Source of the DNA: Branchiostoma floridae
Taxonomy: Eukaryota > Chordata > Leptocardii > Amphioxiformes > Branchiostomatidae
Direction of reading: 5' to 3'
DNA: 64,000 nt
Assembly (NCBI RefSeq): GCF_000003815.2
Contig: NC_049991.1
Coordinates: 10,424,821 to 10,488,820 of the forward strand
Shown here: positions 1,180 through 64,000 of the stretch, piece by piece
How the letters are laid out: the number at the start of each line of letters is the position of its first letter
Position numbering within the stretch: position 1 is the first letter of the stretch
Notes under the pieces: model-generated
Told to the model about the DNA's origin: nothing
Seen by the model: the letters and a program-made list of their open reading frames with translations, nothing else
Database searches by the model: none
Translations under genes and position numbers: made by a program

Positions 1180-4100
1180 GACCTAGGGGTGGTATGTGAG
1201 GGAATCAGTCCAGTCAGCTCCACCTATTGGAACGGAATCCGACTGGTGCCGTCCTCTGCTGGGACGGTCTCCAGACTCGAACATGTCGACGTTCTCCATG
1301 CGGGACAAGACGATGGAACAGGAACAACAGCGGCCATCAACATAGAAACATATCCACCTGTGCTCAGAGATGTCAACGTCAAGTACAGTCCAGGTGCAGG
1401 GGTCAAGGTTCAGGGAGCAACTACGGAGGTCAACACCGTGGGCTGCAGCATAGAGGAAAACCAAGGCCCAGGCATCATCATAGAAGACCAAGCTGCAGAT
1501 GTCAACATACAAAACACCAGGGTCTCTAAGAACTTCCCATACGGTGCTCACATCACCCGCGGCAGTGCTGGACAAAAAATTACGTTTACTGATTCTGCTT
1601 TCACTGAGAACTTTGGAACAGGTCTTCTCCTTGATACAGTCGGAAGTGATGTTGTAGTATCAAACAGTAACTTCAGTTCCAACACTCACTTTGGCTTAGA
1701 CTCCATCAACAGTAAAACGCTACAGATTCAGAGCTGTACCCTGAACTCAAATGGACTGGACGGCGTGTGGATACAAGACGAAGTATACACCCTGCCTCAA
1801 ACCGAGAAGAGCTTTTCTATCGATCAGTCTAGCATATCAGAGAACCTTCGAAGAGGAGTGACAGTTTCAATCACCTACCCATCATACAACTGCCGTAACC
1901 ATCAAACCGCCTTCAACATCGCAGGCAGCGAAGTTAGCGCGAATCCAGAAGGAGCCATAGACATCAGCGTAGAAAGATCAACCCGGACATGTTATCCACG
2001 CGTTCTCCTGGACAACACCGATTTCAAGACAAATGGCGGTGACGTTGTTAGCATTTCAGGAAGCCGGTCCGATGTTGAAGTGAGGAACAATACCTTCCAA
2101 GAGAACACATGCGGGCCTAACAAGGTACTCTTTATCACTGGACAGGAAAAGAATGTCAGCTGTATGTCCAACACATTTCAGCAGAATTCTTGCAAGCGTT
2201 TGGGTCTCTTCGATGTGATGGAGTTCGCGAATGTTGATGACATCCAGCAAACGTTTACGGCAAATGTCTTCATCAATAACGACTACGACCCACCGTACCT
2301 CTACAGGTCCGACCCGCTCCGTGACTACTGCACGTTGGAGTTCTCAGGAGAATGGAGACCCATCAGCATCACTCACAATTCCTTCCAGCAGGACGCTTCC
2401 CGTTTGGACCTCTGCAGCACCGTTCGGACAGACTCCTGGGATGGACCCACCATAGGCGCCACTCACAACTGGTGGGGCACGGACGATGAAGAAGTCATAC
2501 GGGATAAGATATTTGACTACATCGACTGGAACAGCGGAGCACAAGTCACATACTCGCCGTTCTTGGACTGTGCAGGTGGAAATCTTGTTTTCATGACGAA
2601 TCATTCTCCATCAGCCGACTCTTTCGGCGGTGTGTTGAAGAGCGATCTACACATATCAAAAGGAAGCAGCCCTGTACTGTTGAAGAGTGACCTAACCATT
2701 CTCCCCGGCGCCACTCTCACACTGGATCCCGGAGTCGAAGTGAAGGCAGCGCCAGGAGCCGGTATTCTCAATCATGGACACATCAACATGGTCGGGTCAG
2801 ATACAGAACCTGTTATCCTGGGTGCACAAAATAATGACAACTTAGCCTCCAAGATCAACTATCTACGACTGTCAGGTGGTAGTGGATTAGAGGTGTTTCA
2901 TGCTGGAACCTGGAAATCTGTATGCTACAATGACTGGGATCATGAGAAGAAAGTGCTCGCCTGTCGACAGCTCGGCCTGGGTCCCCCACGAGACGTCTAT
3001 GGAACCTCAGGCTTTGGTCTGCCACAGAAGGTAGTGGTAAGATGTGCCGGAGGGGAGGAATCTTTCCAACAATGTAACTTTTACGACGTGGCATCAGACA
3101 ACTTCAGGTGCAGTCGCCAATCCCGTCTCACCTGCGAACCTACCCCTGGATGGGGAGGCATAAAATCCCACGGCCAAGATAAGACCAAGGTCGAACACAT
3201 TCTGTTCAAAGACATTGGTCAGCTGCACAACAGCAGATCGTCAGCTTTGTCTATTGAGAGTATCGACAGCGCCATAACCCTGCAGAATGTGGAGATAAAC
3301 GGGTGCTACCAGTCACGAGCTGGTGTGGAGATCATCAGTCCCCCTTCCAATGTAACAGTCCAACATCTCACAGCGTCTGCGTGTGAAGCAGAGTCTGTTC
3401 TATCTATCAACAATGCTACAGATTCTCTCACAATCAACAACGTTGTTATCACGGCTTCAGGCAGCAGGATATTGAGTAACACAGCTGGCATACGGGTGGA
3501 ATCGCGTATGACCAATTCGGGTCCAACCGTAGCCATTTTAAATACTCTGACAACAGGCAACTATTACGGCATGAAGTTAACCGGGGGCCACGGGGACATC
3601 ACTATGGAAAGCAGTGAATCACGTAGCAATAGCCGCGGATTAAACATACAGCAATGGACGGGAGATGTGAAGATTACCCGAGTAAACGCAACGCAAAATT
3701 CCAATGGTGTGAAGATCTCTCACGCAACGGGAAATGTGATAATTAACCAAGTAAACGCAACGCAAAATTCCAATGGCTATGGTGTGGAGATCGCTCAGGT
3801 GACGGGAAATGTGACAATTAACCAAGTAAACGCAGCTCAAAATTCACATGGTGTGGGCTTCTCTCACGCAACGGGAGATGTATGGATTATCGCATCGCAA
3901 AATTACTATGGTGTGGGCATCTCTCACTTGAGGGGGGATGTGATGATTAGCCAAGTAAACGCAGATCAAAATTCCTATGCAGGGCAAAATTCCTACGGTG
4001 TGGGCATCTCTCATTCGACAGGAAATGTGATGATTAACCAAGTAAACGCAGAGCGAAATTCCTATGGTGTGGACATCTCTTACTCAACGGGAAATGCGAT

Positions 4101-6361
4101 GATTAGTCATGTAGACACAGGTCACTCTGGTTATGGTGTGAGCATGAGCTCTTGGTCGGGAAATATAACGATTAGCAACGTAACAACGGGAGGGATTTAT
4201 CTGTCTTCAGTAAATGGAAAAGCCACACTTATGGACATTGAGGCTTCGGGCAGTAGTGACGGTGCCATCTTTATCAGCACAGCTGGTGGCCATTACTCTG
4301 TTACAAATACAACTGTAAGTAGCAGCATGGACGCCAGATTAACAGGAGACAGTAAACTCTATGTAGATGATGTGAACTTTCTGGGAAGCGAACGAGGAGG
4401 TGCTCGCATAAGAACCCAGACCAACGGTGCACAGGAACCTGAAGTGACCATCACAAACAGTATCTTCAACACGAACAAACGATTCGCGCTCCACATGTCA
4501 GGAATAGCATCGAAAGTTGAAATCATACGAAATTCATTCGAAGAAAATGCTTGTCCTCACGAGAGCATGGTAGTACTAGATGCTGTTGCGGAGATGCAAA
4601 ATGTCAGTTTCAACAGATTTATCCAAAACAATGCGAAACGCACAGTCCATTCAAGTATTTTGGAATGGTCGAACAACATTCGTGAGTCAGATTGTCTGAT
4701 CAGTGATAACGTCTTCATCGACAATTACCACTCCCATGGAAGCATCAGGAGCCCTTCCTGTACCCTCCAGTTGGATGGGTATCGACGTAACGTCCGTTTC
4801 CATCGTAACGTGTTTGAGAACCCCCTGGTCGATTATCAAGTGTGCAGCAACATACCGGCACGTAGTGCGCAAGGCTTCGTGGATGGGAGATTCAACTGGT
4901 GGGGAACAAACATAGAAAACGACATCAGGGACGCCATCTTTGACTTTGACGACCGCAACAACCACGCTGTGGTGGTATATCTACCGTACTTCACCAGCGG
5001 TGACGTAACCGTGACACCACCGACCAATCAGGTGAGCAGCACCGACATGCCATTACCGTTGCTAGGTGGGCGGCTGTACAAGGACCTTCACTTAACTCTT
5101 GACAACAGTACATACACTCTGACCTCCGACTTGACCATTCTACCAAACGTGACGCTTACCATAGACCCAGGTGTTGAAGTGCAGGCCTATCCGTGCGTCG
5201 GGCTGCTCAATCTGGGAACATTGATCGCAAACGGAACAAAGCAGCAGCCGATAATCTTCGGTCCGGCCTCAAGTGTCCCAGCCAAATCTAGTTTGTATAG
5301 GCTGACTGATGGGCTGTACCCATGGGAGGGGAAAGTTGAGGTGCTTTTCGAAGAACGTTGGTGCAAAGTCTGCTCTTGGAATTTCCACAAAACGGATATC
5401 CTATGTCGAGAACTAGGATACGGCCCATCAACTCACAGTTCAAATTATGTAATAGATCTCGGCGAAGAATCAGTCAGGCTTGATTCTGATCATGTCATAG
5501 ACTGTCAGGGAGACGAGGAAAAGCTGGTCCATTGTTACCAACGCGACACTGTCTTTACCCGGACACAGTGCTCAGGCAGAAATGCACTCTTTGTGAGATG
5601 CACACCGATATCCACACATTCAAGAGTTCCAGACACAACATGCACATCACAAACATGGGGCGGGCTAAGGATGGCAAGTGACGAATCGTTTCTTCTGAAC
5701 CATGTTCATATAACAAGCAGTGGAACTTTGCATTCCAAACCCGCGTCAGGACTGTCTATTGAAAAGTCAGGTGGACATATCTCTAACGTGCTGATTAAGA
5801 ACTGTACAGGGTCAGGTCTGGAGATCTTTGGTCCGGGTTCGGACATCACAATTACTGACTCCGAGATTCATCATTGCCAGGCAGATACTGGCATCGCGAT
5901 CTACGGGTCTCAGAGCGAAGTCCATGTCAGTAGAGTAACGCTCACCAACAACAGCTTTGTCAAAGGAGGTATCTCTGTCAACTCATGGGACGCGTATGTC
6001 AACAGGGAAAACTTTGAAAACGTCATCGGGATTTGCGACTCAGAGGAAGACGTATTCCTTACAGCGGGCGCTTACTTCGTGTATGAGACCAAAAGCTGTC
6101 GGTGTGTGAAGCACATCCACGCGGGGAAGGGAAAGGAGATACAGCTGCGGGTTATCGCAGCAAGGTTCAGCGGGTATTCATCTAAGCTGCTTGTGTATTC
6201 CGATGTAAGCCAACAGAATCTGCTTGGGGAAGTGGACAGCTGGAATCAAGGCAACAGCAGAGTCTTCCGTTCACCTGAGGTCATGAGCCTGAACGCCTTC
6301 CTGATGAATGGCGGCAGTGTTGATTATGTGTACTTGGAGGTTCAAATTACCGGATCGTCAG
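1180..6361 (+). CDS. Gene A exon 1 (visible): parallel beta-helix plus two SRCR domains and a CUB-like piece
   Basis: One 5.2-kb exon is open to the donor at 6362 (GTGAGT). Its 5' edge is uncertain. The frame is open from about 1144, and VVCEGISPVSSTYWNGIR aligns with the ends of the two later SRCR domains, so an upstream SRCR is cut off. Asn/Gly/Ser-rich beta-helix coils run 1200-2470 and end in a HNWWGT block near 2467. A linker (LTLDPGVEVKAAPGAG) and SRCR 1 follow at about 2853-3140, with cysteines in SVCYND, LACRQLG, VVRCAGG, QQCNF and LTCEP. More beta-helix runs to an FNWWGT block near 4892. SRCR 2 lies at about 5290-5610. A CUB-like piece starts near 6008 (IGICDSEEDV). The repeating unit of SRCR, beta-helix and NxWWG matches the organisation of Bark beetle. 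GTG at 1189 is not a start. Confidence 0.85.
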
Positions 6362-9300
6362 GTGAGTAAAATATCATACATATTTACAACATTTTTCTTC
6401 AATATTTCTAATGCCAGAGGTGGGTCTGAGAGAAGTTAGAAAATAATTGTTATGGGTTCATTTTGTCTAAGCTGTTATGTTCCTGCATTTTCCAGGTCCC
6501 TCAAGACGCACGGTTACAGACAGCGTACTAAGTAACAACTATGGCACTGCAGTCAATATCAAAACCATAAGTGAGTCTGAGATAACAATTTCGCGAAGCA
6601 CACTTATTGAGAACACACCGTTGACACCAGACAGTTATGACCGGCAAGCCGTAATCGTTTTGGACAGCATGAACACCCACTTCGCGATCCAGAACAATTA
6701 CTTTTTTAACAATTCAATGAAGGGACTGAAATTCAAAAGTTCTGGAAACAGCGAACTTTTCCTTGGACACAATATGTTTGATACCAATCAGGGCAACGGA
6801 ACCGTCCACCTTATTGATGGGGGCCAAGGCACTTCTCAGGCTCTTATCTTCGGGAACGACTTTGTCTCTAACGACGCCCCAGGCGAATTTAGCATCATGA
6901 CCCTGGGGAACACAGCAGGAAGCGTCAAGAAAAATCATTTTTATCGCAACATTGGCCTGTACATTGTTGATTGGCAAGTCCGTGGCCAAAGCCAGATGTT
7001 TACTCACAACCGTCTGGAGCACAACAGCGGGCAGAGGCCGGGGTACAAGCACACCGTGGCCGTGTCGGGGCCTGACGTACATCTCCATCAGAACGTCCTC
7101 ATCAATCCCGCGAACGATGCGGAACTCATCGCCCTGAGCACCAGATCACACGCCGATGTAGATGCCACAAACAATTGGTGGGGCTTTAATGAGTCAACTG
7201 TAATCACTGGTAGAATCAGAGACAGCAGAGACCTACCGGAGCTCCCAGATGTCCTGTTCGAGCCATTCCTAGAAGAGGAACCCGAAAAGGGTAAGGGAGT
7301 GGCAATACTCTTGACTGTGGGCATGTAATAAGCCTGGAACTGATTTCAGTATTTACTCGCAATCATGTATACCACTTATCGTCGAGATAATTGTTACATC
7401 TTTTCTTCCTAAGGAATCTGTCGTTATCCGTGGTTCCTCGAAGAACAGCTTGGATACTGCTTTCTGTACAAAAGTGCGGCTCGAACATTGAATGACGCCT
7501 GGGACTCATGCAAGGTATCGCAATATTCCGCCAATAACATTGCTTATTGTGCACAGTAGGAGATGATTGGGTTCTATCTAAATGGATTAACGTATGCATG
7601 TTCTATTGAATTCAAGTCATTGCTTGTTGGTACTCTGTACTATTACTGAATGTAAGTTGGTAGGTTTCGAAATACACCAATACTACGCTCAGGAATTCAA
7701 TGTGATATCATTTTTAATTATGCTGTTGTCTTTCAGGAACAATATGCACAGGTAGTAATGAAGGCCTCAGATAAGGAGTTGCAATTTTTAGGTGCTGCAC
7801 TACAAAGAGAAATAGATGACGTCAACTTCGCACTAGAGCCGGAACCATTTTGGATGGATCAGGAGGTGAGCAGATTTCAAGATGGATCTCAATATCGAAA
7901 TTTTGGTTGTCGTCAATGAATGTTACAAAACAGAAGGCACCTTCATAACAGCTTGTTTTCCTTCAGCTCTCCAGTGCCGAACAAGCATGCCGGGTGTATC
8001 AACAAAACGCAGGTGCTAGCGATGTCCTGACGGCACAGTGTGATTCCCGCTATCCGTTCTTCTGCAAACTGCCTGTCGGTGAGTACAGCAAGCAGTGGAT
8101 TGGATAGTGAATACATTCTGATCATATGGTCAAGGTAGATACGGACATATTTGTCTGCATGTGACACAACTAGTATTTATATTTCAGCCATACCATAGGT
8201 ATGGTGAAATATATTGTATTCGTAATGTTTCTTTCTTTCTTTCTTTCTTTCTCCTGTCAAATCTTCAGAACACGGTATCTCCCTTGTTCCTCAACCGAAT
8301 GACTTGAAATTTGGCACAAGGGTAGAGTGGGCTAATACCCTCGGAGGTTTTTTTCTTTTTTTCCATATCTGTCTCTTAAATGATTTTATTAAGGTTTTTT
8401 GGTCATCTTAAGACCAAAACTGTATATTTGGGCCCCCTGTACCCTGGTATTATAACCGAATGAGCTGAAATTTGGTACAGATGTGCCTTGATAAGTCCCC
8501 CATATAGCTTCAATATCAGTTTTGGTGTACAGTATAACGAAATACTTATTTTTGCGATTTTTTGGTCATTTTTTTACCAAAAAAGGACACTTTTGGCTCC
8601 TGTACCTTGGTTTTAGAACCGGATGACCTGAAATTTAGTATAGGAGTGCCCTAGACATATGCGCACATGGATTCAATAACACTTGAAGCATACGGTACAA
8701 TAAAATGCTCAATTTTGCGATTATTTGGCCATTTTAGGACCAAAAAGTACACTTTTGGCTCTTGTGCTCTGGTTTTAAAACCAAATGACCTAAATTTTGG
8801 TAAAAGGGTGCACTAGATATTTATTCAAATGACACATGTATAATTTTTGTCATAGACTACGTCAAAATGATATATTTGGGGATTTTTTTGTCATTTTCCA
8901 ATAGCCAGAGGGGTCAATGACCTTAAGGTCGTTGACCCCCAACTGCAGATTGCACCTACTGGCATATATGTCTATTTAATCTAATAATATAATTAGATAG
9001 GTAACCAATCACTTAGCCTGAATCTATATCCTAAAGAGGGGGGGGGGGGGGGGGTGGAAGCCAATCAGCGAGCCCGGTGTTATCTGGAAGAGTCCATTCT
9101 TACACGGAGGGGTTCATTTTTTTTTTAATTCATCATTGGACTGGTGAAGTCTTTCGGTGGATGCATTTTTGGACAGGTCTGTTTTGCAATTTTACAGAAT
9201 GTGTGCTGGAAGAGTCTATTCTTGCACGGAGGGGGGATTTTTCAAAATTCACATTTTTGACTTTGGTGACTTCTAGTTTGTCAAAGTCTTTCAGTAGGGT

Positions 9301-12300
9301 TATTTTTGGACTGGTCTAATTTGCAATTTTACATGGGTGTTCTGGAAGAGTCCATTCTTGCATAGAGGGGGCTTTTTTTAAAAATCCATTTTTTGGACTT
9401 TAGTGATTATGTCAAAGTCCTATTTTAGCGGATGTATTTTTGGACTGCTCTACTTTACATGGAAGAGTCCATTTTTTGCACACGGAAGGGGGATTTTTTC
9501 AAATTCAGTTTTGAACGGGTGATGATTCAAAATTCAATTTTAGTGGAAGTGTTTTTAGACTGGTCTATTATACCTTTTTATGCACTGGGACCTTTTTTGC
9601 TAAATTCAATTTTGGATTTGGTTTCTTATTCAAAAGGCCAAGGTTTCAGTGGGAGTATTTCTGGACTGGTCTATTGTGCAAATTCACATAGGGTGCACTC
9701 GGAGTCCATTCTTGAACGGGGAAATTTTGTAAGACTCATTTTTGGGTTAAACCGTCATTAGTAAAAGTGATTTTTCAAATGGGTGATTTTGAAATAGCCT
9801 ATTGTTGCATGGGGAGGGAGATGGCTGAAATATGCTGTATTTGCTCTCAAGCAAATGTCGGCCTTTCTAGTGTTAGATATATGTCTGGAATAGCAACTTA
9901 AATTGGTGCATTTAATGGAGTGAAAAGAGTTATTCATAGTTTGCAATTAATTTGTTGCCCCATGAAGCATTGCATGTATTCCAATGTCCCCCAGCGCGCG
10001 GCTGTCCCAACGATTGTTCCCACAACGGTGCCTGCCTTGAGACGACCTGTTACTGTGACAGGGGCTGGAGTGGGTCAGACTGCTCCCGACCAAACTGCCA
10101 GGATCTCGACGATTGTGGAGAATTTGGCGTGTGTGTCGGGCCCAATGTCTGCAGGTGTAGGAACGGGTGGCAGGTAAAAATCAATTACTAGTATACATGT
10201 ACATGCGTAACATGTTGGCACAACCTTTATGTCTAGAACTTTACCAATGAATTTTACTCTTAGTAGATACATAGATCTTTGTTGTCTGACTATCATGAAT
10301 ATTTATCATTGTACAGCGTTTGGGCTATGTTCACGTTGGTAACACTAAAGCCAGGTGAGGTAAATGCATATTGGGACAACCTGGTCACTTCGAAGCAATT
10401 GTAGTATAATTGTGTCGGACCTATTAATGACTTTTAATTTTGCTTCATCAGTTCTAGTAACTTCCAACAGCATCTTTTGTAAAAAATATATTTTTGTAAA
10501 ATACATTTGTATCTTCTCACATTCTAACCTTTTCTCATGTTTCGTAACTTATGGTTAATTCTTTCTTCCGCAGGGACGTGGCTGTACTGTAAGTTACTGC
10601 AGCCGGTTCAGCACGTGTAAGTCCTGTGTTCAGTCCGTGGGCTGTGGATGGTGTGACCAGACTCAGTCCTGTGAATCAGGCCTGTACGGCGGAGCTGACG
10701 TCATACCGTGTCCTACATGGTTCTACCACAACTGTTTTACCGTCGGCAACAAGGGGCTCTGTTCGGGCCACATAGAGGTAGATCTAGCAATATGTTTTTC
10801 GATCTCATTGGTATTTATCAGAATAGAATAATCACATCAACTTCTTCCAACAGCACATTACTAAATCATACTAAGATATTGACCTCCATGAAATGTCATG
10901 GAATGGAGGTTATATTTTCTGTTATGTGTCTCTGTCTGTGTAGATGATTACTCAAGAACGGCTGGATGGATTGGTTTCATACTTGTTGTGTTGGTGGGGT
11001 GTGATAAAAGCTCGAATCGATGAGATTTTGGGCGCCGTATCTGTCGTTATAATTGATGTAATAATATCAGAAATCACCCCTATATCTGCGATATATTGGA
11101 ACAGGCATCATGCTTTAAGCCTTTGTTAATGGGCTTAGCTCATCTCAGATAGTGAGGTGATTTCTACGACAGCTGTTTGGATCTGTGTACAAGATTACTC
11201 AAGAATGGCTGAATGGATTGGTTTCATACTTGTTGTGTTGGTGGGGTATGATGAAAGCTCAAATCGATGAGATTTTGAGGGCCGTATCTGTCGTTATAAT
11301 TGATGTAATAATATCAGAAATCACCCCTATATCTGCGATTTATTGGAACAGGCATCGTGCTTTAAGCCTTTGTTAATGGGCTTAGCTTCAAGCAGATAGT
11401 GAGGTGTATGACAGCTGGTTGGGGAACCCCGAGCTTTTTGACCTGGTGTGTTATACTTCGTTTGCGCTGTTAGATTTTGTGCTCCGCGTGGCGTTATGAC
11501 TCTATGCGTGGCTATAATATATATCTGGCATCAACTTGTCCCCGTATCCTACATGTAGGTATTGGTTGAAGGATATTTCAAGAACACCACGCTACCATAT
11601 GGCGTCGATCTATTAAACTCACATTATACTTCAAGTGTCACATATTTATATTTCCTAATCAGATGGACATTGTTTTTGTCTTTGAATGAAAAACCAGTTC
11701 TCTCCCATAACAGTAATATCCATTACTCTCAAATACAACCGACCATCAACATACATAACATCCACAAAAAGCAATAAATATTTCATGGAGGTATGAGGTC
11801 CCCGAACTCTAGTTAAAACTGCGTTTTGCTACACATATCATTGACTGATGCTGAATCGGTGTAGTAAAGAGTTTTATTTGATCTCGTTGTTTTGTCCAAG
11901 GTTGTCGACTGTGACTTTCGACAATGTAACTCGTCCCTGTCTACCACTACTGTTGAATCCTGCCTTAGGTGCCAAGACGTGGAAGGGTGTTTCAAGGATA
12001 CGGTAAGTTGCTCGATGCTAGGACTCACCTACGAGGTCTAATTATCTACAAGATCCGAAAAAAAACCGTCTGATTAACACGTGTTTAACCTGTATATACT
12101 GTTGAAAGCGTTACCTACTGAATGAAAGGTTATCTTGAATAGAATTTGAAGTACTTACATGCCTCTGTTTCCAGGAGGGCGGTTACTGTAAAGTCTGGGA
12201 CCAGAGCCGATGTCCAAAAGGTTTTGTCTATCCCCTCTACAACGACACGACGCGCATTGAACAGGTCCTGACAGGTCACAACGTGAAGTACGTGCCGGCA

Positions 12301-15300
12301 GATGGCGGCCCTCTGTACCACTGTCAGGTCCGCTTCTCGTCCTGGGGAGCTACCCTGTTCATCCAGGAGGGAGAACTGGACGTGCAGCTCGGCCAGGTGC
12401 TGTCCAGTCCTCAGGCGGGCGGCGTGCTGCACAAGGTCGAACAGGTTGTGACTGAAGGTACGTAGTATGATGTGACACACGCTCTGCACATTTGGCAACG
12501 GTTAGTATTAGTCTCTTTTATCTTCCGCTGATCACTTTTCTGTCGCTTCTGTTTTCACCAGGTGCCTACACTCTAGTGGCTGCGCATCCTGCCAGGCTGG
12601 AGGACATGTTTAACTACGCGGACTTCAGCCAGAGGGTCCGACTGGAGCCAGTCGTGGACTTCAGCATCATGGAACAAGAACCGCCACTTTCTGTCGTGCA
12701 GAGCGTGATTCGAGGGAACGGGACGTTTCACGGAGACAACACACACGTGATAAATCCTGGTGAGTTGGCCAAATAAAAAGTAAACGTTGCTTTGACGTCT
12801 CTTGTTTACGTTAGGACATATTTTCACTTGTAGACACAATCTTTTACCTCTTACTAGAGAATTAAGGTGATAGAAGGGTGCTATCACATTTTTCACTAAT
12901 AGACACATTCTTTTTCTCTTACTATTGAATTAATATGATAGAGGATGCTATCACATTTTTCACTAATAGACACAATTTTGACCTCTAGCTATTGAATTAA
13001 TGTGATAGAGGGGTGCTATCACATTTTTTCACTAGTAGACACAATATGTAACAATTTCCCCTTACTGGTGAATTACTGTGATAGAGGGGTGCTATCACAT
13101 TTTTTTTACTAATAGACACAATCTGTTCCTCTTACTAGTGAATTATTGAAATAACAGTTCGGAAACAAGTTTTAACAACTTTTCACGTTTTCTGTCCTGA
13201 AATACTATTCAGGGCTAAATAAATGTGACAAATAAGCAAGTCTCAATGCATAGGATGTACTTAACCATTACTATGATACTTTTGTCAACAATCCAACAAA
13301 CCATGAGGTATTTGAGACGTGGACAAAGTTCTATTTAACTTAAGTGGACTGATTAACTTTGTTATTTCAATCCTAGTCTTTCTTTTTTCGGTCATTTCAG
13401 CCGTGGTGGTTTACAAATGTGTGGGACCCAGCGGCAGCCTACGCCTCGTTTTCCATGAGAGTGACCCTAACCTGCCGGACATCACGGTCGGTGACGTCAT
13501 CGTGGGGAACCATAGTAACGGGATGCTGGAGATTTTAACCAAGCCGCTGTACATCACAGCCTTCGGGACCGTCATCCACACACACCTGGCGGATTGCTCT
13601 GGAAGAATATATAGGTAGCTTATTATATTATTATTATTATTGTTATTGTATCAGCTATTAGCTGAAATGTTTTACTTAAAGCAAGGACGTCTGATATAAC
13701 GTCCTTGCTTAAAGCCATATCATTTCCTTTCATCAAGATATCTACGAGTTTACGTATTCAACCTTCTTTTCTATATAGTATTCTCGAGCAGTTCCCGACC
13801 GTAAGTGGACACGCCGTGCCGCCTCCCCTGTCGTGTTCGGGCGGCCCCACGGGTGAGACCGGGCTGCTGATTACCGAGGCTCAGGACCTCGTGGTGCTGC
13901 TCGGGACCCATATGGTGGTGGGCAGGAAAACGGGCAGGTTCGCCGTTAAGGTACGCAGAATATTTCTGTGATGGAATTATCGAGGCCATTACGGCTTAAT
14001 GCAATATGGAGCTTCTAATATACCACAGAATATATATTTTTAAATGGTCGTCTGTATCATCATTTCGATGTAGTATTGGGACCTAGATACTTCTGTTGGA
14101 AGGGTTACATACACCAATCTATCTCTTTGCTGAAGACGTTAGTCCAAAGGCTCAACAACAACAGGACATCCTAAAAGTGTCCTTCAATCTATCTGCCATT
14201 CTAGGTTCTGTCTAAACGCGTGGAATCTGGCTTCATTGTCATGGAAGCAGAGTCCATAGGCATAGACACTTCGAAGATGTCCAAATCTCCTGGCAGTGTC
14301 GGAAATAGTGAACTGAGATGGCACATAGCAGCTGCAGGTGAAGTCGCCATGGTAAGTAAAGAACAGATGTAGCATTACACAAATGTAGGTACAAGATTTA
14401 AAGAGTGGCACATATCGTCAAACGTCACGTATCACATGTGTAACATGGACATATTGTGTCTTGTCGAAACCATTTCGTGTATTATCATCAAAGATATAAG
14501 ATGCATATTTTTAATGCTATTTTACCTTCCTATGATTGATGTGAGCTTATAACAGTTATAACAACAGATATACAGTATTTAGGTAGTGTCACATTTCGGT
14601 CGCAAAGAGAACTAGAACACATACCTTCGCCAAATAAACGTTTGTTATGTAGAATGATGTCCGTAGACATAAATGTGTAACTCATTACATTTTATTTTCT
14701 ATGTTATTTGATAAAGTCACACAAACACTTATCAACTAGAGTTCGGCGACCTCATACCTCTATGAAAGTTTAAGAGCTTTTGTAAATGTTATGCAAATGT
14801 TATGACCAAGACTAATGATTTTGGTGCGGACAAAACCAACCAGTTTCTGACGTAATATCATAAATATCAAAGATCTCTGTCAAGAACCAGTCTCCTGAGA
14901 CTTGAGAATGTGTCAGAGTAACCCTACAGAGGTGGAGTAGAGATGTATTTTTTTGTAATGTGAGAATCTCATACTCTTTATTTATATGCCTCTCAGAAAC
15001 TTTAACTACTTTTCACATTTTTACCTCTCCCTCCCTCACTCCCACTTTGTGCGTCTTCCCTTTTTGTCTTTGACTTTTTCATTTCTCACCTTCTTTGTTT
15101 CCGTGTTTACCTTAATTCCATTTTTGTCCTTCCATAGTGCACTTGTATATATATAATCTATTTCCTTTCATACATTCCAGTCATTCTAATCATATATTTT
15201 TCTATTAATTATGCAAATGAGGTCATCGTTTGCATAATTAATCTGTGTTGGCATTTCTTTCTTTCTCAGCTACATATGTGACATGTTTGAAAGTGCTATC

Positions 15301-19363: not shown

Positions 19364-19427
<64 letters not shown>

Positions 19428-33129: not shown

Positions 33130-33175
<46 letters not shown>

Positions 33176-43984: not shown

Positions 43985-44084
43985 NNNNNNNNNNNNNNNN
44001 NNNNNNNNNNNNNNNNNNNNNNNNNNNNNNNNNNNNNNNNNNNNNNNNNNNNNNNNNNNNNNNNNNNNNNNNNNNNNNNNNNNN
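43985..44084. other. Assembly gap, 100 N
   Basis: Exactly 100 N, the customary size for a gap of unknown length. Left of it is repeat DNA. Right of it the sequence is already deep inside the third beta-helix block of gene B. Everything equivalent to the first 5.5 kb of gene A is missing, so the real gap is likely several kilobases or the region is misjoined. Confidence 0.9.
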
Positions 44085-51300: not shown

Positions 51301-54300
51301 TCGTACACAATGATGCATTAATGATCATATGACATAAAAGAATCCCACTAGAAATGAAGAAGAGTGTGCCGGTAAGCTGATTTGCAAAATCCCAAAAAAT
51401 AATCCCACTTAACTAGAAATGAAGAATAGTACTGAATTGCAAAATAACAGAAATGTGTATCTACAACAGGTAACCACGTTGAGGAGGACATCTTCCCTTA
51501 CCGCATGACGGCGTCTGTTGAGGCTAAGGCTCTCCTGAGGACCTCCACAGAGTCATGTTCTCAGGAATGTCCACATGCGGATCGTCCACAGCGGGTGGGG
51601 GTGACGTCACTGTTAGACTACCTGAAGGGACGGCTTGATGTCGACCAGGTCACGGCGGTCCACTCAGAAGAAAAGGTCTGGCGAGATGGAACATGGATGG
51701 AGTCAGACTTGTACGTTTCCAAAGATAGACGACTAGTGGTTGCTGAATTTCTAGCCCGTCTTGGAAATGTTATCGTCCAATTCCTAGAGATATAAACCCA
51801 CGAAGGCGTAAAAGCTTGATCTTTGTTGAAGAACATGTCATGTTTTCTTCTATCACCAGATATTGTGCAGCCCAGGCAACAGACATCACCACCTGTGACA
51901 AAGCTTGTTCTTGTCCTGGCGGTGAGGTTTCCCTGTCACATCCTGCCAACACCAGCGTCTGTCAATGTCCCTGTAACTGCCCAGATGGCGTCGTCCATTT
52001 CACGGTGAGTATGAAATCATCCCTTTTTGCGTTTGTACACGTACTCTGAACAACATGCGTCAAAGTATATCGTGTGTTTTAGACATCATCTCATCTTATA
52101 GTTAGCAAAGTTTGGTCTATTGGTTAATAATGGTTTATCAACTTAGCAATTGATTAGCTGTCTCTAACATAACCTAACGTAAACAGAAGTATCACAACAC
52201 AAGTATGAAGTACTCTGCCACATTGTATTTTACCTTTGTATTTTGTACAGCATCCCGGCATCCCCGGCGGTGGATGTAACTGTGAGCGGTGTCCTGACGG
52301 GTCTATGAAGGTCCCGGATGAGGAAGGCCGGCTACACTGCCCGTGTCTGTGTGCCGACAATAGGACCAGCGAGATGGTACCGGGCGGTGGGGGCAAATGT
52401 GACGTAAGCACCTTCATTCATCAGTTCAACACCCTATTACTGGGACTTAACAATTCTACCAACTCTGTCCATTTAGTGTTTTCTTCATTCACATTTGAAT
52501 ATTGATATTTCTCACAGTTGATTTTAACTTCATTTATGATTCATGAAGACAGGTGCATGTTTGTCAACTGCGTAACTCTGCCTCTCCGCTGCTTCAGTGC
52601 TCCTGTCCATGTGGTGACGGCAACAGTGACGTCATCGCGGCAGATGGCAGCTGCCCGTGCAGGTGCACCTGTAGAAACTGTCAGGAGTCCGTCCTGGGTC
52701 CGCACGGCTGTCTCTGTTCAGACAGGTTAGGAATATCTTACTTGTAGATCAAAAGATATCATTACTTGACGTAATGTAAGCAGTATTTAGGACATTTATA
52801 AGGGTAGTTACTATAATTATACTAATGTTTATCTCTTGACTTTTGGAGTTCGTCCGAATGATTCACTGATTTAATCGTATTACTGTGACACTAAGTTATA
52901 ACCTTTGTTGGTCAACGTGTTTCTTGTTCATATGACTCCAATTTTCCCCGCTAGCTGCCCTGACTGTGAGAATGGAGAGGAGCCGGTGTGGGTAGACTGT
53001 AGCTGCAGGTGTCCACAGAAGACTGAGTGTGGAGCTCCGCCCACATGTGTGGTGGGTAGGATGGGTGTGGACTGTAGGCAGCCGGACTGTAGACCTTGTC
53101 AAGGTAGGATTACAACTAAGTGAGGACATGACTGAGAGACGCATATTCTACAATGACATCCATCATGATATATTATCCTTGAAATCTTTTCTCAGCAATA
53201 CCATTCATTGATTATTATACATTTCTACAAAGGCTGTTCTGGCAACGGCCAGTGCAGGACTTCGGCTGACAGCTGTCAATCATCCTGTGTGTGCGGCAGT
53301 CAGTGGTTTGGTGACTGTTGTCACCTGAGGAGGCCGAGACCTGTCGGAGGAGATCCGCATCTTCAGACGCTCGATGGTACTGATCAGTACATTCCTTCCA
53401 ATTATGTCGTAATATATTCAATTCCTGTAATGATGTATTCAACTTTATGAAATATTAGAATATAGTTTAGTTCGACATTTATACAAACTGGGGTTTACCA
53501 AGGAAACTAACAATTTTCCCAGGTCGCGCATTCGACTATCACGGCATCGGAGAGTTCTGGGATTGCAAAAGTCCAGAAAACGACTTCGGCGTGCAGACCC
53601 GCATGTTCGGATTCAGGGGTGCCTCTCTGGTCGGAGCTGCGGCAGTGAAGACAGGGCACAGCGTCGTTACCATAACAACACCACAAAACGCTACGGAGAA
53701 GAGCTTGCCGATTTTAAGGTATGTTCCAGTGGCAATGGTTTTCTTATTATCCACCAATATGTCTGGAAAAGATCAGCTTTTAATTTCAACAAACATAGCT
53801 GTGTATCTCAGCAGTTCGGTGGTACCTTTGGTCTCTGGAAGGCACATTTTTTTTCTTTATTCAGAAACACATAACATGGACAATGTGGCGCTGCACTCAA
53901 GTTTAACAACTTATTTTAACAGCGAGCGCCACATAACAAAATACAAATGAATTAATGAACTTAGGTAACTTAGGTCAACATAACTGTGCGCCATTTCCCA
54001 CCACCCCAAGACAAGTAGTATCAATTAGCCTAATTGAGTACATATGAAAAAGAGAATTAACAAACGTAGAGTTGGGACTTCTATATCTACTTGACTGATA
54101 TAGGCACATTTGAGTGTTGATATTCCTTCCACGTTTTGTTTATAGTGATATATCGTCTTTTTATATCATCTACCATCTAGGATGGACGGCCAACTCCAGT
54201 CCATCAATACAGGACAGACGTACGTCCTGAATAACGGCACGGTTCATCTTGTGGCGGAGATTCCAAGTACCACCGAGTCCGGGGAGGTTGTACTGTTTTC

Positions 54301-57300
54301 ATTCACCTTTGAATCAGGTAAGGTCATTTCATTGTAAATCTGGAACTTACAAGCTTTTAAAATGCATATTGAGCATGTGTTTAATTCTGACTATAGCGCC
54401 AAAATGGTATCGTATATGGTGTAACTCATTTCCGTCTACATTTACTTGTTCAGGAGCCTCGGTTGCATTTGACATCCGGTTCTCGCCCAAGATGGGTCGT
54501 CAGTACCTGAACACCATCTTTAGTCCGACAGCAGACTTTAAGGAGAAGACTCAGGGACTGTGTGGGTTTATGGACGATGCTGAGGACAACGACTTCACAG
54601 GACCGGACGGAGCTCTGCATGGGGATGCAACCTCATTCGCTGAGTCATGTACTGGTCTCCTTGTACTTGTATTTCCATCCTTCCTTCTCGCTGTCTCTGT
54701 CATTGTACATCTGATTTGCACATTCAGAGAAGAACAAGCATATTGGCGTTCTCGATTTATTTGACAAAACTTCATAATATTATCATATTCTGAAAATGCT
54801 ATTTCCATACAGGGCGCATCATCACCACTCATCACGGGTCCGGCCTGCTGGGTTCCTGGTCCTGGGAATCTTCCAACTTCCACCCCGATGACGTCATGGG
54901 TGAAGCATATACTGACCAAAGTCACAAACCAACACTTGGATTGGATGCATTCACACCGGAGCAACGAAAGGTAAAGCATCTAGAGATTTATTTCATTTGT
55001 TCCTTTCTGTTCAATGATACGTGATTTAAGGCAGCTTAAATCACGAAGAAGAGAAGAAGGCAGCTTTATCTTGGTGGGACACTTACACTGTGGTTATGTA
55101 TTTGTCCACAGGTAGCTGAAGAGACCTGCGCGCAGCTCGGTTTGTCAGGTGTCCTTCTGGAAGAATGCATTTTTGATGTCGTCATTACAAACGACACGAC
55201 CTTCTCACAACAGGAAGTCTTCAAACTCGGTACGTAGTAGGCTAGTGTTGCGCATGACGTGGTAACATTGAGATTCGACACATTGCTAGCATCGGTGCTG
55301 CTTCCAAACTGTTACAAACGATTCGAAGAAATGCCTACCAATCAATGCTTGCCATCTATTACAGGATGCCCTTCTCAGTGCTCCGGTAGAGGGCGCTGTG
55401 TGAACAGCACCTGTGAGTGCATGTCGGGCTGGACAGGTCCGGACTGTGACGTAGGCAACTGTACGGACTGTTCCGGAGAACACGGGAAGTGCGTGCTTGG
55501 GTTCTGCCAGTGCGAGCCGGGATGGGAGGGAACAAGCTGCTCCCAGCGCGGTACTGGCATATTCTCTAACAAATGCCGTCATTAATGTAATGCTAGCTGT
55601 AGATTTGAACACATAACGTAAACCTGATGAGCAGCAGAAAAAGACTTAGCGTTATCTTTGTAATCCTTCTGACTCAATTTTTTCTCCCTCCATGTATGTT
55701 GTAGCAACGTGCCATGCAGTTAACAACTGTACCGATGAGCAGCATGGCCTGTGTGTGAAAACAAACCAATGCGTGTGCGTCCCCGGATATATAGGTAATT
55801 ACATTATCAGTGCTTATATGTACATTTGTTTAGCCATAGCTTTATAATATATTGATTTCAATTTGTAAACATCACCAAAACTAAAGTGGACTACCAGAAT
55901 ATTGAAAATGAAGCTGTGTGATTCTTGTCTAGTGTTATGAAATGATATGTTACAGGTGTGGACTGCAGTGAGATCCCGACCTGTTACAAGACCGACAACT
56001 GTACCTCCCGTGGTGTCTGTGTGGATCACGACAGGTGTCTGTGTGAGCGGGACTGGACGGGAGACAAATGTGACAAGTTTTCCTGCAAGAACCTGGACAA
56101 CTGCACAGGTAACTAGAAGACACTTTGATTAATCAACTCGATATAGTAAAGCACTAATTTAAGGAAGGGAAACCTTTTATAGTAACCGTATAGTGTTACA
56201 GGTCAATTGAAACTCCTTGCATGCTTGATGTAAGACACGTTAAGGATCTACTACAGGCATGTATATATGAGTAGTAGCTACTCGTTTTGGAACAGATACT
56301 CGATTCATCCAAAGAGTGTGTTTCTATATCTCTGGATTGTATACGTGTTTTATGCAGGGCAATTTCGGTCTATCTTTTGAACGGACACTTTCTGTCAGAG
56401 GAGGGTTGGTTAAATCTGCCATCTCTGATTACTTCTTTTCATTGTATTGTTATGTTAAAGTAACGATATGTTTATTAACAAGATCTGGCCAACTTAGGAT
56501 TTTAATTGCAATGCTTTACAGGACATGGGCTCTGTGTGGACATTGACGTGTGTGCTTGTGATTGGGGCTGGACCGGAAGTTCGTGCGCCATACCTGACTG
56601 CCCATTGGTCAACCACTGTTCCCGCCATGGAGACTGTGTGGCACCCGACCTGTGCCACTGTTACCCAGGGTATGACGGGAAGGACTGTAGTCTCGTACAG
56701 ACCTGTCCTGAGCTGAACAACTGCAGCAGTAACGGGATTTGTGTGAGAAACGAGTCGTCAGGGACTGACATCTGCAGGTATATGTCACTATTCAGTCTTC
56801 TTACACAATCTAGACATTGCACAACGTAACATTGACGGGAGCTGTGACATATCGTACATTTCGATTATGAATAAGGACATCAAAATTGTAAGGCCTTCTT
56901 TCGCTCAAATGAAATCAAACGGTACGTGGCATTATAAACGTTTAGATAAAATGGACTAGACATTTACTAGAAGAAAGATAAAAGACTTAGTGTTTGATAA
57001 ATTGGATGGTTAAACTACGGGAAAGACAGATAAAGTAAAATTTTTGATCGACTTTTTCTTAAAACACAGGTGCTTCCAGGGCTATGACAAGGATGACTGC
57101 AGCAGACCAGACTGCTCAGGCCGGAATGACTGTTCAGGCCACGGTGTGTGTGTGGAGCCCATGCTGTGTGAGTGTGACAAGGGGTACGGCGGCGTCAACT
57201 GTAGCGACTTCTCCTGTCAGAAGAACAACTACTGCTCAGGTAAAACTGTACTATGCAATAATAGATCAAGCTAATGTATAATTGCAGTCTGAACCTTAGC

Positions 57301-59536
57301 CATAGCGTTCCGGTATAATTGGCCATAAAGGACGCATTGCTGTCATAATTCTATGTTCAATTTCGAAACCTTTCAATGTAAGATAAAGTAAGTTTTACGG
57401 GATTTACTTTGTTTCAGAACACGGGGAGTGTACTGACTATGACGTCTGCACATGTAACACGTCATGGTCGGGAGAGGCGTGTAACATCCCAGACTGCACT
57501 GCGGTGAGCAGCTGTTCCAGCCGGGGAACGTGTCTCGCACCCGACACCTGCGACTGCTACCCTGGGTACGAGGGTGACGGTTGTGAGTTAGAAACCCCGC
57601 CAAACCTGAACCGTCCCAACTTTACCCAAGACGTCTACAGGATCCAAGTCGTAGAGAACCCCACTGTTGGAACGGTAGTGGCAACAGTACGAGCGACTGA
57701 CAACGACACTGGTATAAACGGAGAAGTGAAGTACAGGGCGGTTGAACTCAACAACACTACAGCACTTACCTTAGTTCCTGGGACTGCAGACATTGCCACA
57801 ACCATGGAGCTGGACTTTGAAGCCATCGGAGACAAAGAGTTCGAGTTGATTGTTGAAGCCATAGACGGGGGTGCGCCGACACTAACAGGAACAGCCACGG
57901 TTATCATGACCGTTACAGACGACAATGATAACATCCCTGCGCTGAACATAGCTGATGAGTCCGAAGTGCATGTTGTGTTGAGCGCCCCTATTGGCTACGA
58001 CGTTATCGCCGTAAACGCAAGCGACCATGATGCGTCTGCTTCATTTTCTAACGTGACGTTTAGTCTAACGTCAGCCAATGATTTCTTCGGAATTGATGAA
58101 ATAAACGGACGCATTCAGGTACAACGCGCCTTGCAAATAGGTACATATCCATTGGAAGTTGTGGCGAGTGATGGCGGTTATCCACCAAAAGCGCGCAGGG
58201 CGACAGTTCGAGCAGTTGTGACACAGATAAGCGCGAACACACCTCCTGTCTGTCAGCCACAAGACGGTCCTGCTCATCTCTATGTGGACATCAGCAAACC
58301 AGGTGACGTCATCACAACTGTGTCTGCACTGGACCGTGACATCGGAACAGCTGGCGATCTTCGGTACAGCATCAGTGATAGAAAGGGCAACTTGTCAAGT
58401 GAGTTTCAGGTGAATCCTGCCTCAGGTGACATCTACTTGACAACCACACTAGACCAGTCTTCTAGCAATATCTCCTTCGTGTCGCTGACTGCACAAGCTA
58501 CGGACCTCGGCACGCCGCCATTGCAATGCGACCTCCGGGTGAACATTGTTATCACGAACGACCCATCACAGCCCGCCAACGTCACGTTCCCGCCAGATTG
58601 GTTCACCACGGAGATTGACCACAGTCTGGTTATACCAACCGCCCTAGGTCTCAATACAACAGCCCAAGGTTTGAATACAACCGCCCCAGGTCTCAATACA
58701 ACAGCCCAAGGTCTCAATATAACAGCCCAAGGTCCCCATACATTCTCCCATGGCCTTGACACAACCATTCAGGTTCCCAAGACAACTGTACAAGACCAGA
58801 CAGGCACTGCAAACGAGGAAGTGACTTCACCTACCAATATTGGTACGCTATGTATAAATGCGATACGGACATATATCATACGTCGTATCATTTGCGCGTT
58901 TTACGTTTGCTTCTATGTGCCATAGGCAATCCGTTTGTTTTAAACTCCAGCGATTACTGGGATAAATTTGATACATGTACTAATTGTATCTTTGACGTTT
59001 CACTCACTCACTCACTCACTCACTCACTCACTCACTCACTCACTCACTCACTCACTCACTCACTCAGTTTACCGATTGTTAAATTGCCTTTGTCGTTAAA
59101 AGTCAAGCTATTTCACGTCAAAAATAGTAGCGACATAGTGTTTCTGATGTTCTTTACATAACAGACTGAATCTATATTTGCAGGAGCAGTGCCAGCCCAG
59201 CTAACCTGGTACCAGCAACCGGAGTACATCGGCGCCATAGCTGGAGGCATTATGGGTGTGGTGCTTTCGATCTCTGTCCTCATCTACGTCATCAAGCGTA
59301 GGAATCCAGGAGCTAAAGTCCTACCGGGGAAAAAAGAAATAGAACCCTGGACACGGATTAACACACCAAACTTTGACTGCCCGGCCGCCCCAAGATTGGA
59401 GACCCCAAGTGCGCCTCCCTCTCTCACAGTTTATAAGAACACACCAAACTTTGAATGTCCGGCCGCCCCAAGACTGGAGACCCCACGTGGGCCTCCCTCT
59501 CTCACACTTTATAAGAACCGTGCCTTCCAGGCATAA
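44085..59536 (+). CDS. Gene B: tandem paralog of gene A (5' end in gap, 34 exons)
   Basis: Product and domain order are as in gene A from the third beta-helix block to the tail. Exons are 44085-44618 (partial), 44755-44855, 44963-45091, 45200-45311, 45488-45666, 45945-46148, 46518-46619, 46841-47123, 47729-47926, 48159-48369, 49122-49290, 49553-49702, 50028-50203, 50344-50479, 50691-50807, 51080-51242, 51470-51710, 51860-52004, 52251-52403, 52598-52725, 52955-53103, 53233-53376, 53523-53718, 54181-54317, 54454-54648, 54813-54970, 55112-55229, 55364-55550, 55705-55794, 55956-56108, 56522-56777, 57070-57239, 57418-58842 and 59184-59536. Only five exons differ in length from gene A, each by three bases. 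No stop or frameshift is seen. It lies in the same orientation, with about 5 kb of repeats between the genes. Confidence 0.87.
45488..53103 (+). CDS. Gene B: EGF, PSI-like, unknown region and CPC modules
   Basis: Exons from 45488-45666 to 52955-53103 correspond one to one with gene A exons 6-22. EGF exon: CSHNGACLETTCYC. PSI-like exon: SCVQSVGCGWCDQTQSC. The unknown region keeps all landmarks (EGGYCKVWDQSRCPKGF, KEKVRVCIMDDICIPGEKW, ESCSQECPHADRPQRVG). Exon 49553-49702 is much more divergent than its neighbours (EPITTTTGASKRSSDVESS against an unrelated-looking stretch in A). The CPC exons are nearly identical. Introns are mostly short and do not align with those of A beyond the first bases. 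Confidence 0.86.
47200..47652 (-). mobile_element. LINE fragment in a gene B intron
   Basis: The intron 47124-47728 is about 500 bp longer than in gene A (104 bp), and the extra sequence lies between shared ends. On the minus strand 47652-47467 reads QKLQNRTARIILGLSY and ALAWTELRFHVANYTFYKLY. This is the LQNRAARII-type motif found near the C-terminus of many LINE polymerases. The copy is short and without a polymerase core. Confidence 0.6.
48428..48916. mobile_element. Fold-back element of about 490 bp in a gene B intron
   Basis: The ends are CCCCTTCACAC and GTGTGAAGGCCC. The interior pairs imperfectly along its length: ATTCTTACTGCATTCCAGAT on the left against ATCTGGAATGCAGTAGGAAT on the right. 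It has many ATTCCG/GAATTC-like words and no coding content. Gene A lacks it at this position. Confidence 0.75.
53233..58842 (+). CDS. Gene B: vWD module, ten EGFs, cadherin repeats
   Basis: The exons correspond to gene A exons 23-34. The vWD part has GGDPHLQTLDG, RAFDYHGIGEFWDC, QGLCGFMDDAEDNDFTGPDG and, with the donor after 54648, FAESWRI and GSGLLGSWSW. The intron between 54317 and 54454 is 136 bp, against 11.3 kb in gene A, and shows the state before insertion. The cadherin exon 57418-58842 is one codon shorter than in A and has DDNDNIPALN and VSALDRDIGTAGDLRYSI. The stalk has five TAxGLN-type units. Confidence 0.88.
53850..54102 (-). mobile_element. 253-bp retroposed insert with 9-bp target duplication
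   Basis: GGCACATTT stands on both sides (53841-53849 and 54103-54111). Gene A has the empty site once, at 21450-21458. On the minus strand the insert ends AATAAAGAAAAAAAA, that is a polyadenylation signal and poly-A tail. So it was copied from RNA in the minus sense. It may be a SINE or the 3' end of a LINE. I do not recognise a tRNA-like head. Confidence 0.88.
59001..59066 (+). repeat. (CTCA)n microsatellite in the last intron of gene B
   Basis: About 16 perfect tetranucleotide units. Gene A has only TTTGACGTTTGCG at the same place, so the tract expanded after duplication. The THSL repeat in the open frame 58850-59161 is a by-product. Confidence 0.95.
59184..59536 (+). CDS. Gene B last exon: membrane helix and tail with duplicated unit
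   Basis: The exon is nearly identical to gene A 38534-38886, with the same helix (AIAGGIMGVVLSISVLIYVI), the same two 78-bp tail units (59360-59437, 59438-59515) and the same NRAFQA end. The few changes include one residue near the start of the tail (KKEIEPW against KKEVEPW). Confidence 0.92.
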
Positions 59537-61525: not shown

Positions 61526-61570
<45 letters not shown>

Positions 61571-62432: not shown

Positions 62433-62728
62433 TTATGTCAGGACTGCTTCTGCGGGATATGCCCGGAAGGCACGGTTGTTATAGACCGTGCTGGTGGGAG
62501 CGGGAGTCACCCAAGCTTGGGGCGGGCGTTCGTCAACATTTGGTGTTTTCGGTCGTGGTTCTTCTTCTTCTTCTTCCTCCTCCGGTAAGACTTTAGCTCT
62601 GGCGTTTCTCCTGTACTTCATGACGTAGATGAGGACAGACGTCAGAAGTGCCACGCCCACGACGCCTCCCGCTATGGCGCCGATGTACTCCGGTTTCTGG
62701 TACCAGTTCACAGGAGCTGGTACGGCAC
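62433..62728 (-). CDS. Gene C last exon: membrane helix and acidic tail
   Basis: The acceptor on the minus strand is AATTGCAG before 62728. The exon reads AVPAPVNWYQKPEYIGAIAG, then a helix (AIAGGVVGVALLTSVLIYVM) and KYRR. The tail has eight consecutive Glu and a single TPNVDERPP-to-TSTVYNNRAF unit, and ends YPAEAVLT with TAA. The helix start is close to genes A and B, but the tail is clearly different. It has one unit where A and B have two, an acidic insert and a longer end. Confidence 0.9.
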
Positions 62729-64000
62729 CTGCAATTACAAATTACTCTGAACATAAGAAACACAACGTTACAACTATTGCCGTTAGCAAAAAATGCAGGG
62801 GAATCGCACACCCCCATACAACATTTTCTCCTCGATAGGTGACTGAGTTTCTCACAAAAAGGAAACCTTGGAAACTGATACGAGGGGCTAATTACTCTGA
62901 CTCATTTCCCATAGCAGGAGATTAATGAAACTTGGCACAGATATTAGTCTTTCTCTTTAAAGGAACCACCCAGAGTTATGCATTTCTTCCATTGTTTGAT
63001 GCAGCTCTGGACACCGTTTTCGTAAGACACCCCAGGTTGGTCCTCCAACAGATGCCTCATCAATGGCAGAAGAGGAACGACCAAGTCTGGGAGCTGTTTC
63101 CACATACTTCCGGCCATGTTTGTATTCAGGATGCCAGCGTTTTACAAGGTCATATGATGGGGCATCATCACCATAAGTTTCTTTCATTTCATCAAAAGTC
63201 TCCTTTGGTGTGCGTCCTTTCAAATACAAAAACCGGATCACTGCGCGACACTCAACTGGCTCCATTTCACACCTGGTCCATTTCACACCTAACTCAGTTC
63301 AAACACCAGTAAATCAGAAAGCACAATTAGTCCAAAGCTTTGTTTTGCAACATAAACTATAGACAGATGAATCATTACACATGCAAAATTTTATTTAGAT
63401 CAGACAACTGGAAGTGGGTCAGAGTTATTACTTATTGAACGCCCCTCGTAAAGGAGAACTTTAGAAACATAAATCATGACAAGACGTTTTACATGAGTGC
63501 TCCTGTCCACAATGTGGCCATGTTACATAAATAACTCACCAATAGTTGTAGGTGCAGTTGTGCCGATCTGGTCTTCGTCGGTTGCATTCAATCCTTGGGC
63601 TGTTATATTGATACCTTGGATGGTTGTATTGAGACTTGGGGTGGTTGTTATAAGCAGACTGTGGTCAATCTCAGTGGTGAACCAATCTGGCGGGAACGTG
63701 ACGTTGACGGGCAGTGATGGGTCGTTCGTGGTAACAATGTTCACCCGGAGGTCGCAGTGCAATGGCGGCGTGCCAAGGTCCGTAACTCGTGCAGTCAGCG
63801 ACACGAAGGAGATATTGATAGAAGACTGGTCTAGTGTGGTTGTCAAGTAGATGTTTCCTGTTGTAGGATTCACCTGAAACTCACTTGACAGGTTGCCCTT
63901 CCTATCACTGATGCTGTACCGAAGATCGCCAGCTGTTCCGATGTCGCGGTCCAGTGCAGACACAGTTGTGATGACGTCACCAGGTTTGCTGATGTCCACA
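62433..64000 (-). CDS. Gene C: third paralog, inverted (only last two exons in window)
   Basis: Two exons are visible: 63540-64000 (cadherin repeat 3 and stalk, continuing past the window) and 62433-62728. The cadherin part reads VDISKPGDVITTVSALDRD and on to TARVTDLGTPPL, almost the same as genes A and B at both protein and DNA level. The stalk is shorter (TPSLNTTIQGINITAQGLN). Donor GTGAGT at 63539 on the minus strand. The gene is convergent with gene B. The intron holds a mariner remnant. Confidence 0.88.
62881..63448 (-). mobile_element. Mariner transposon, internally deleted (568 bp), in the last intron of gene C
   Basis: The ends are CGAGGGGC and GCCCCTCG with TA on both sides (62879-62880, 63449-63450). 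The inner part of the inverted repeat (TTACTCTGAC against GTCAGAGTTA) also matches with a small shift. The ends are related to those of the fold-back element in gene A. The element carries a fused remnant of a mariner transposase on the minus strand. Confidence 0.9.
62957..63286 (-). pseudogene. Remnant mariner transposase, N-terminal HTH joined to the C-terminus
   Basis: The 109-codon frame begins MKWTRCEMEPVECRAVIRFL and has YLKGRTPKETFDEMKETYGD and SYDLVKRWHPEYKHGR, the helix-turn-helix of mariner/SETMAR-type transposases. ETAPRLGRSSSAIDEASVGG follows. It then jumps to a short basic end, GVLRKRCPELHQTMEEMHN. The whole DDD catalytic domain (about 200 residues) is gone, so the product cannot cut DNA, though it could still bind the ends. 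Confidence 0.88.

Follow-up and report, generated by a model that had tools for sequence, protein, structure and literature searches.

Drosophila Anakonda/Bark (Aka) is the closest described counterpart of the proteins analysed here, and one account (PMC11698045) gives its plan as a signal peptide, SRCR, CUB, beta-helices, a C-type lectin and a membrane helix. According to the same source, the triple-repeat ectodomain of Aka mediates homophilic adhesion, a fly fragment consisting of the lectin and the membrane helix still binds M6, and the protein sets described for tricellular junctions differ between vertebrates and invertebrates (PMC11698045). An earlier note on the DNA examined here had credited Drosophila Bark/Anakonda with an SRCR, beta-helix and lectin-like part, in agreement with that plan. 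Other parts of the lancelet proteins recall different families. Teneurins carry EGFs together with NHL and YD-repeat parts, and MUC4-type mucins have NIDO and AMOP domains beside VWD; we take MUC4 to be one of the VWD relatives.

The window is a stretch of 64,000 nucleotides of Branchiostoma floridae (C13:10424821-10488820, equivalent to NC_049991.1 of assembly GCF_000003815.2; C-numbers denote contigs of the same genome). Negative positions lie ahead of the window start and are counted in window numbering. Like Aka/Bark as described (PMC11698045), the product of its gene A combines SRCR, CUB, right-handed beta-helices, a C-type-lectin-like domain, a threefold repeat and a single membrane helix, a likeness to the published plan rather than to the fly sequence itself. 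Unlike Aka, in which the lectin directly precedes the membrane helix, the lancelet protein has ∼ 2000 aa of EGF, PSI, VWD, EGF and cadherin modules between the two, and the lancelet genome has ten such loci. Because of these ∼ 2000 aa we name the proteins carriers of a Bark-type ectodomain and not Aka members. The Bark ectodomain itself is known; what is new is its fusion to a multi-module stalk, which is old and has been multiplied. No description of a Bark–VWD–cadherin fusion was found among the titles and abstract openings of the open literature searched.

Results and discussion

Exon structure of gene A

Gene models A, B and C were predicted by chaining exons with a script whose score combines codon usage, splice sites and agreement between the copies at the codon level; stretches of a LINE, an N gap and two long introns were masked from the exon search. 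The raw chain for gene A had 38 exons, with its 5′ end outside the window. After correction by hand the model comprises 37 exons encoding 4474 residues; it opens with an ATG at -9665 and its stop is at 38886 (Table 1). Four exon ends were moved to agree with copies B and C (9968 to 9995, 18225 to 18270, 38268 to 38233 and 38515 to 38534). A 21-nt exon at -8978..-8958 was dropped as it interrupts SRCR1, as were three raw-chain exons that fell within the antisense LINE (19626-20889), a series of tiny exons placed in an upstream repeat and four exons ahead of the ATG. The VWD exon 32919-33113 was missed in the first chains because of its weak donor and was recovered at a lowered threshold. The corrected model places 35 of the 37 exons inside the window, in line with the continuous reading phase over 35 exons reported in the earlier note. 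Of the span 1180-38886 given there the stop stands, whereas the start moves to 1169 for the giant exon and to -9665 for the gene; since exons 1 and 2 precede the window, the start of gene A is missing from it. Exon 1 encodes a hydrophobic N-terminus that by eye resembles a signal peptide. All introns are GT-AG (36 of 36 in A, 33 of 33 in B and 36 of 36 in C), which means that intact sites exist, as the script admits GT/AG sites only.

Table 1. Features of genes A, B and C in window coordinates.
Feature	Position	Strand	Remarks
Gene A exon 1, signal-peptide-like	-9665..-9216	+	outside window
Gene A exon 2, SRCR1 (most of its remainder)	-8634..-8478	+	outside window
Gene A exon 3, giant: SRCR1 end, beta-helix 1, SRCR2, beta-helix 2, SRCR3, beta-helix 3, CUB	1169..6361	+	
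SRCR3 of gene A	5308..5604	+	best Pfam SRCR stretch, 905-1003 of piece 2596-6360
CUB-fold domain of gene A	6022..6360	+	
Gene A exon 4: beta-helix end, third NxWWG	6496..7290	+	
Gene A exons 5-7, C-type-lectin-like domain	7414..8078	+	7414-7514, 7737-7865, 7967-8078
Joint intron lectin/EGF, phase 1	8079..9994	+	minisatellite 8436-8802
Gene A exon 8: first two EGFs	9995..10173	+	
Gene A exon 9: PSI domain	10574..10777	+	Pfam
Gene A exons 10-20: ∼ 650 aa middle region without Pfam/PDB match	11901..17389	+	
Gene A exons 21-24: Cys-rich 'CPC' block	17538..18684	+	
Gene A exons 25-29: EGF-like start and VWD	18811..33430	+	large introns 2230 and 11255 bp
Gene A exons 30-35 and exon 36 start: short spacer, then EGF array	33543..36997	+	
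Gene A exon 36: last two EGFs, three cadherin domains, Thr/Asn-rich stalk	36806..38233	+	Pfam
Gene A exon 37: membrane helix, cytoplasmic tail, stop	38534..38886	+	helix ∼ 38575-38643, by eye; stop 38886
Assembly gap of 100 N cutting gene B	43985..44084	.	
Gene B, 34 visible exons, inside exon 4 to stop	44087..59536	+	exon chaining
Gene C, last exon (62728-62433) and part of EGF-cadherin exon (64865-63540)	62433..64000 in window	-	

Domain assignments

Gene A was scanned against Pfam in seven pieces, with matches reported at E ≤ 0.1; NCBIfam matched none of four proteins. The outermost 2300 predicted residues follow the Aka/Bark plan. The SRCR/beta-helix units of the earlier note are borne out by both Pfam models, SRCR at 78.2 and 85.1 bits (cut-off 26.1; one and two stretches) and Beta_helix at 70.4, 73.7 and 28.1 bits in the three Bark pieces (cut-off 25.9), and its three NxWWG ends are found at residues 635, 1444 and 2159. 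The Bark part also holds a CUB domain, as Bark/Anakonda does; five predicted models of the CUB piece had mean pLDDT values from 78.4 down to 54.3. The lectin-like unit of the earlier note is supported by a profile built from A, B and C, which matches CD209 (E = 5.4e-7); Pfam Lectin_C gave no match in gene A, and in a relative on C11 it reached 14.2 bits, below the cut-off of 22.6.

The modules that follow were largely named correctly beforehand. The PSI-like module scores 25.5 bits with Pfam PSI (cut-off 23.1), PF00028 finds the expected three cadherin modules in three stretches (147.8 bits), and the one membrane helix is seen by eye in exon 37. Two labels changed. The EGF array is present and matches EGF_TEN at 175.8 bits (cut-off 65), with 2 + 10 EGF_Teneurin stretches, so ∼ twelve EGFs take the place of the ten counted before. 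The domain called a MUC4-type vWD is a VWD domain, related to solved VWF (phmmer, E = 4.9e-8); Pfam VWD gave no match in the gene A pieces and 31.9 bits in the C11 relative (cut-off 22.9). The MUC4 type fell away, as neither NIDO nor AMOP was reported in the seven pieces at E ≤ 0.1.

These likenesses to known families are partial. Gene A shares the VWD domain with VWF and the gel-forming mucins, but has a single one, set in a membrane protein that also carries Bark and cadherin parts. Its EGF array is teneurin-like, whereas no NHL, RHS/YD or other teneurin domain appeared in the seven pieces and the membrane helix is C-terminal. The three Pfam cadherin domains near the membrane recall cadherins, yet there are only three repeats, on a Bark/VWD/EGF protein whose cytoplasmic tail had no Pfam match. 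The middle region (11901-17389) had no PDB or Pfam match at E ≤ 1; its conserved ∼ 650 aa hold recurring GDVIVG..SG.LE-like stretches. In the tails of A (38710-38868) and B (59360-59518) a 26-aa unit with VYKNT or LYKNR at its end occurs twice, and the gene C tail has one VYNNR.

The lectin–EGF joint

That a single gene runs across 8078-9995, as the earlier note held, agrees with the relatives. The joint intron is 1916 bp in A, compared with 176 bp in B, 228 bp in C and ∼ 120 bp (by eye) in the C11 relative. These three short introns contain neither AATAAA nor ATTAAA and leave little room for a terminator, a promoter and a signal-peptide exon. A Bark gene ending after the lectin, adjoined by an EGF-PSI-VWD-cadherin gene beginning at 9995, could give a false appearance of one gene, and both the length of the joint intron in gene A alone and a PSI-middle gene without Bark on C12 (see below) would suit such a pair. 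We nevertheless regard two genes as extremely improbable, given the short joint introns of the relatives, blocks that remain together at ten loci, and a search for a membrane exon after the lectin exons that found none. The introns on either side of the lectin module are both of phase 1, which suits exon shuffling. By parsimony, the single gene arose by one fusion at a phase-1 intron, and only afterwards did the family come to occupy four contigs.

Genes B and C

The 'cluster' of the earlier note consists of two forward copies, A and B, and one inverted copy, C, a minus-strand gene that reaches into the window from 64000. Gene C runs from 92306, at another 100-N gap at 92311-92410 that cuts its exon 1, to 62433 and has the whole plan minus the first codons. 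Its exon lengths equal those of A or differ by multiples of three, except for exons 12 and 13, where the model of C is off and gives 143 and 203 nt versus 198 and 214 in A; the differences of 55 and 11 total 66, and exon 13 of this model starts in phase 0 versus phase 1 in A. Gene B is open at its 5′ end, directly after the N gap, and shows only the end of its Bark part. The stretch from the end of A to the gap yielded no Bark exon, and the distance from the end of the giant exon to exon 4 is 134 bp in A and 165 bp in C. The Bark part of B is either hidden in the gap or lost. Multiplication of the fused gene thus describes the family correctly, whereas in B itself the Bark part is mostly unseen.

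A family at ten loci

The genome (431 contigs, 513,431,437 bases) was searched with four queries taken from individual blocks, which agree on one set of loci. Since these searches score the best candidates only (37 of 248 for the giant Bark exon), absence of a match is not proof. The CPC-VWD block was found at all ten loci, plus one weak VWD piece on C6, and the EGF-PSI block of the lectin-to-middle query likewise at ten of ten. The giant Bark exon was present at nine among the best candidates (37 of 248); the locus without it is gene B, which is cut by the N gap. No full Bark exon away from the ten loci was among the matches listed, and the remaining Bark matches are eight short pieces elsewhere, mostly SRCR-sized, and a further three near family members. 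These counts accord with a Bark module that was fused and then multiplied. The EGF-cadherin exon is clear at nine loci (three on C13, four on C11 and two on C4, where the match spans EGFs and two cadherins); at the C1 locus the match takes in the EGFs but stops within the first residues of cadherin 1, and many further matches of this query are cadherin repeats alone. The membrane/tail exon query matched the three C13 copies only, and no convincing membrane exon emerged from a hydropathy scan of six cadherin loci, one of which, L032, was read in the wrong orientation.

At C12:17.28 Mb a PSI-middle block with 34–44% identity was found, and the 18 kb read there gave no Bark, CPC, VWD or cadherin match. 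This gene may be kin of the gene that donated the stalk. The block lies at locus L045 (C12:17280000-17289999, minus strand), and a possible signal peptide, which is speculative, is located near C12:17289238. In the genome-wide VWD search the window's own VWD exons were absent among the matches listed. Near-identical VWD matches spaced ∼ 1,942 bp apart occur at C6:15469235-15504898; they may belong to a single large VWD-repeat gene or form a tandem cluster.

Conservation, age and selection

The C11 relative extends from C11:4541429 to 4517023 on the minus strand. Its matched exons are collinear with gene A, and at least 30 of the 37 exon queries matched (identity > 38% or E < 1e-15); the seven unlisted are exon 1, three lectin exons, which were found by eye, two middle exons and the membrane exon. 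Identity to A is 32–35% in collinear Bark pieces, 50% in the SRCR1 exon, 40% in the cadherin exon and 65% in the exons for the first EGFs and PSI. A tree of cadherin-exon sequences used seven of nine extracted candidates, both C4 loci having failed the filter and C1 not being among the nine. It separates the three genes on C13 from the four on C11, the two groups being ∼ 40% identical; the fusion is thus older than their split.

Between C13 and C11 the CPC/VWD exons are the best conserved (43–84%), as might be expected of a matrix or mucus component in which the VWD/CPC core forms networks like the gel-forming mucins, with the cadherins and helix as a tether until shedding. The relationship of the VWD to VWF and mucins points the same way. 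Such a role is quite improbable, because there is one VWD only and because the three C13 copies retain a membrane helix and tail.

The three C13 genes are under purifying selection, beyond chance, with whole-pair dN/dS values of 0.27 (A-B), 0.32 (A-C) and 0.26 (B-C). The membrane-proximal stalk gives the highest values (0.70–0.75). For B versus A, dS is uneven, 0.84 in exon 4 (44087-44618) and 0.07 in the tail exon (59184-59536), which suggests that gene conversion may have occurred between A and B.

Possible functions

On balance, these genes probably encode giant single-pass proteins in which a Bark-type adhesive tip is carried on a VWD/EGF/cadherin stalk, gene A being accompanied by tandem and inverted copies. 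The Bark part would be the binding tip, making homophilic contacts with neighbouring cells; the VWD/CPC core would build or crosslink the stalk, and the EGF-cadherin rod would raise the Bark tip off the epithelial cell membrane. The proteins would be sited at junctions. Their anatomy, the intact frames, purifying selection and the ten-locus family are established, while homophilic binding, a junctional site and the roles of the stalk parts are inferred. Against this reading stand gene B, which has no visible Bark N-terminus, and the membrane exon, matched in the three C13 copies only.

Few large parts differ as much between the C13 and C11 groups as the Bark exon, a finding that counts against adhesion and would also fit a receptor for foreign ligands. 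SRCR, CUB and lectin domains could bind microbes or glycans at a gut or gill surface, with a stalk reaching into the lumen and the copies forming a repertoire. The co-occurrence of SRCR, CTLD and CUB modules is compatible with such an innate-immune or mucosal receptor, as is the YxN of the tail repeats, which we take to be a Grb2-type site. SRCR expansions, those of amphioxus included, are discussed as immune (PMC10855680). We consider this role, the main rival, less likely than adhesion: the A-C dN/dS values of the Bark domains (0.20–0.46) indicate no positive selection on average, although averages hide single sites, and the threefold Bark plan belongs to a junction protein, Aka (PMC11698045).

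If adhesion is indeed their function, an M6-type partner may be available, as the genome contains at least one gene of the M6/PLP family (on C7), the family that includes the fly Aka partner. However, the lectin–membrane neighbourhood where M6 binds Aka is broken here, so the fly mode of anchoring may not carry over. A rather improbable extension of the adhesion reading is a chordate cell-recognition code, in which ∼ ten proteins with a common stalk would each have their own fast-changing Bark tip binding nothing but its like, and combinations of paralogues would mark the cells that may meet at vertices. A Bark-type ectodomain on an EGF-cadherin stalk at ten lancelet loci offers a link, open to testing, from invertebrate vertex proteins to chordate adhesion, and may help to explain how chordate cells recognize and hold their neighbours. 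The Bark part serves as a movable module, and the analysis brings to view a conserved middle region without Pfam or PDB relatives.

Other elements in the window

A tRNA search of the window found none. An antisense reverse-transcriptase ORF of 632 aa lies in a gene A intron (19496-21394, minus strand; Pfam RVT_1, 2.2e-19), and a mariner-like transposase piece in a gene C intron (62957-63298, minus strand; Pfam HTH_48, 5.8e-9). The minisatellite in the joint intron of A is related to one at 39790-40318, downstream of A, both with a 163-bp unit. A gene A intron also contains a 500-N gap at 22054-23074, the flanks of which repeat 261 bp at 99.6% identity; it is probably an unresolved assembly overlap.
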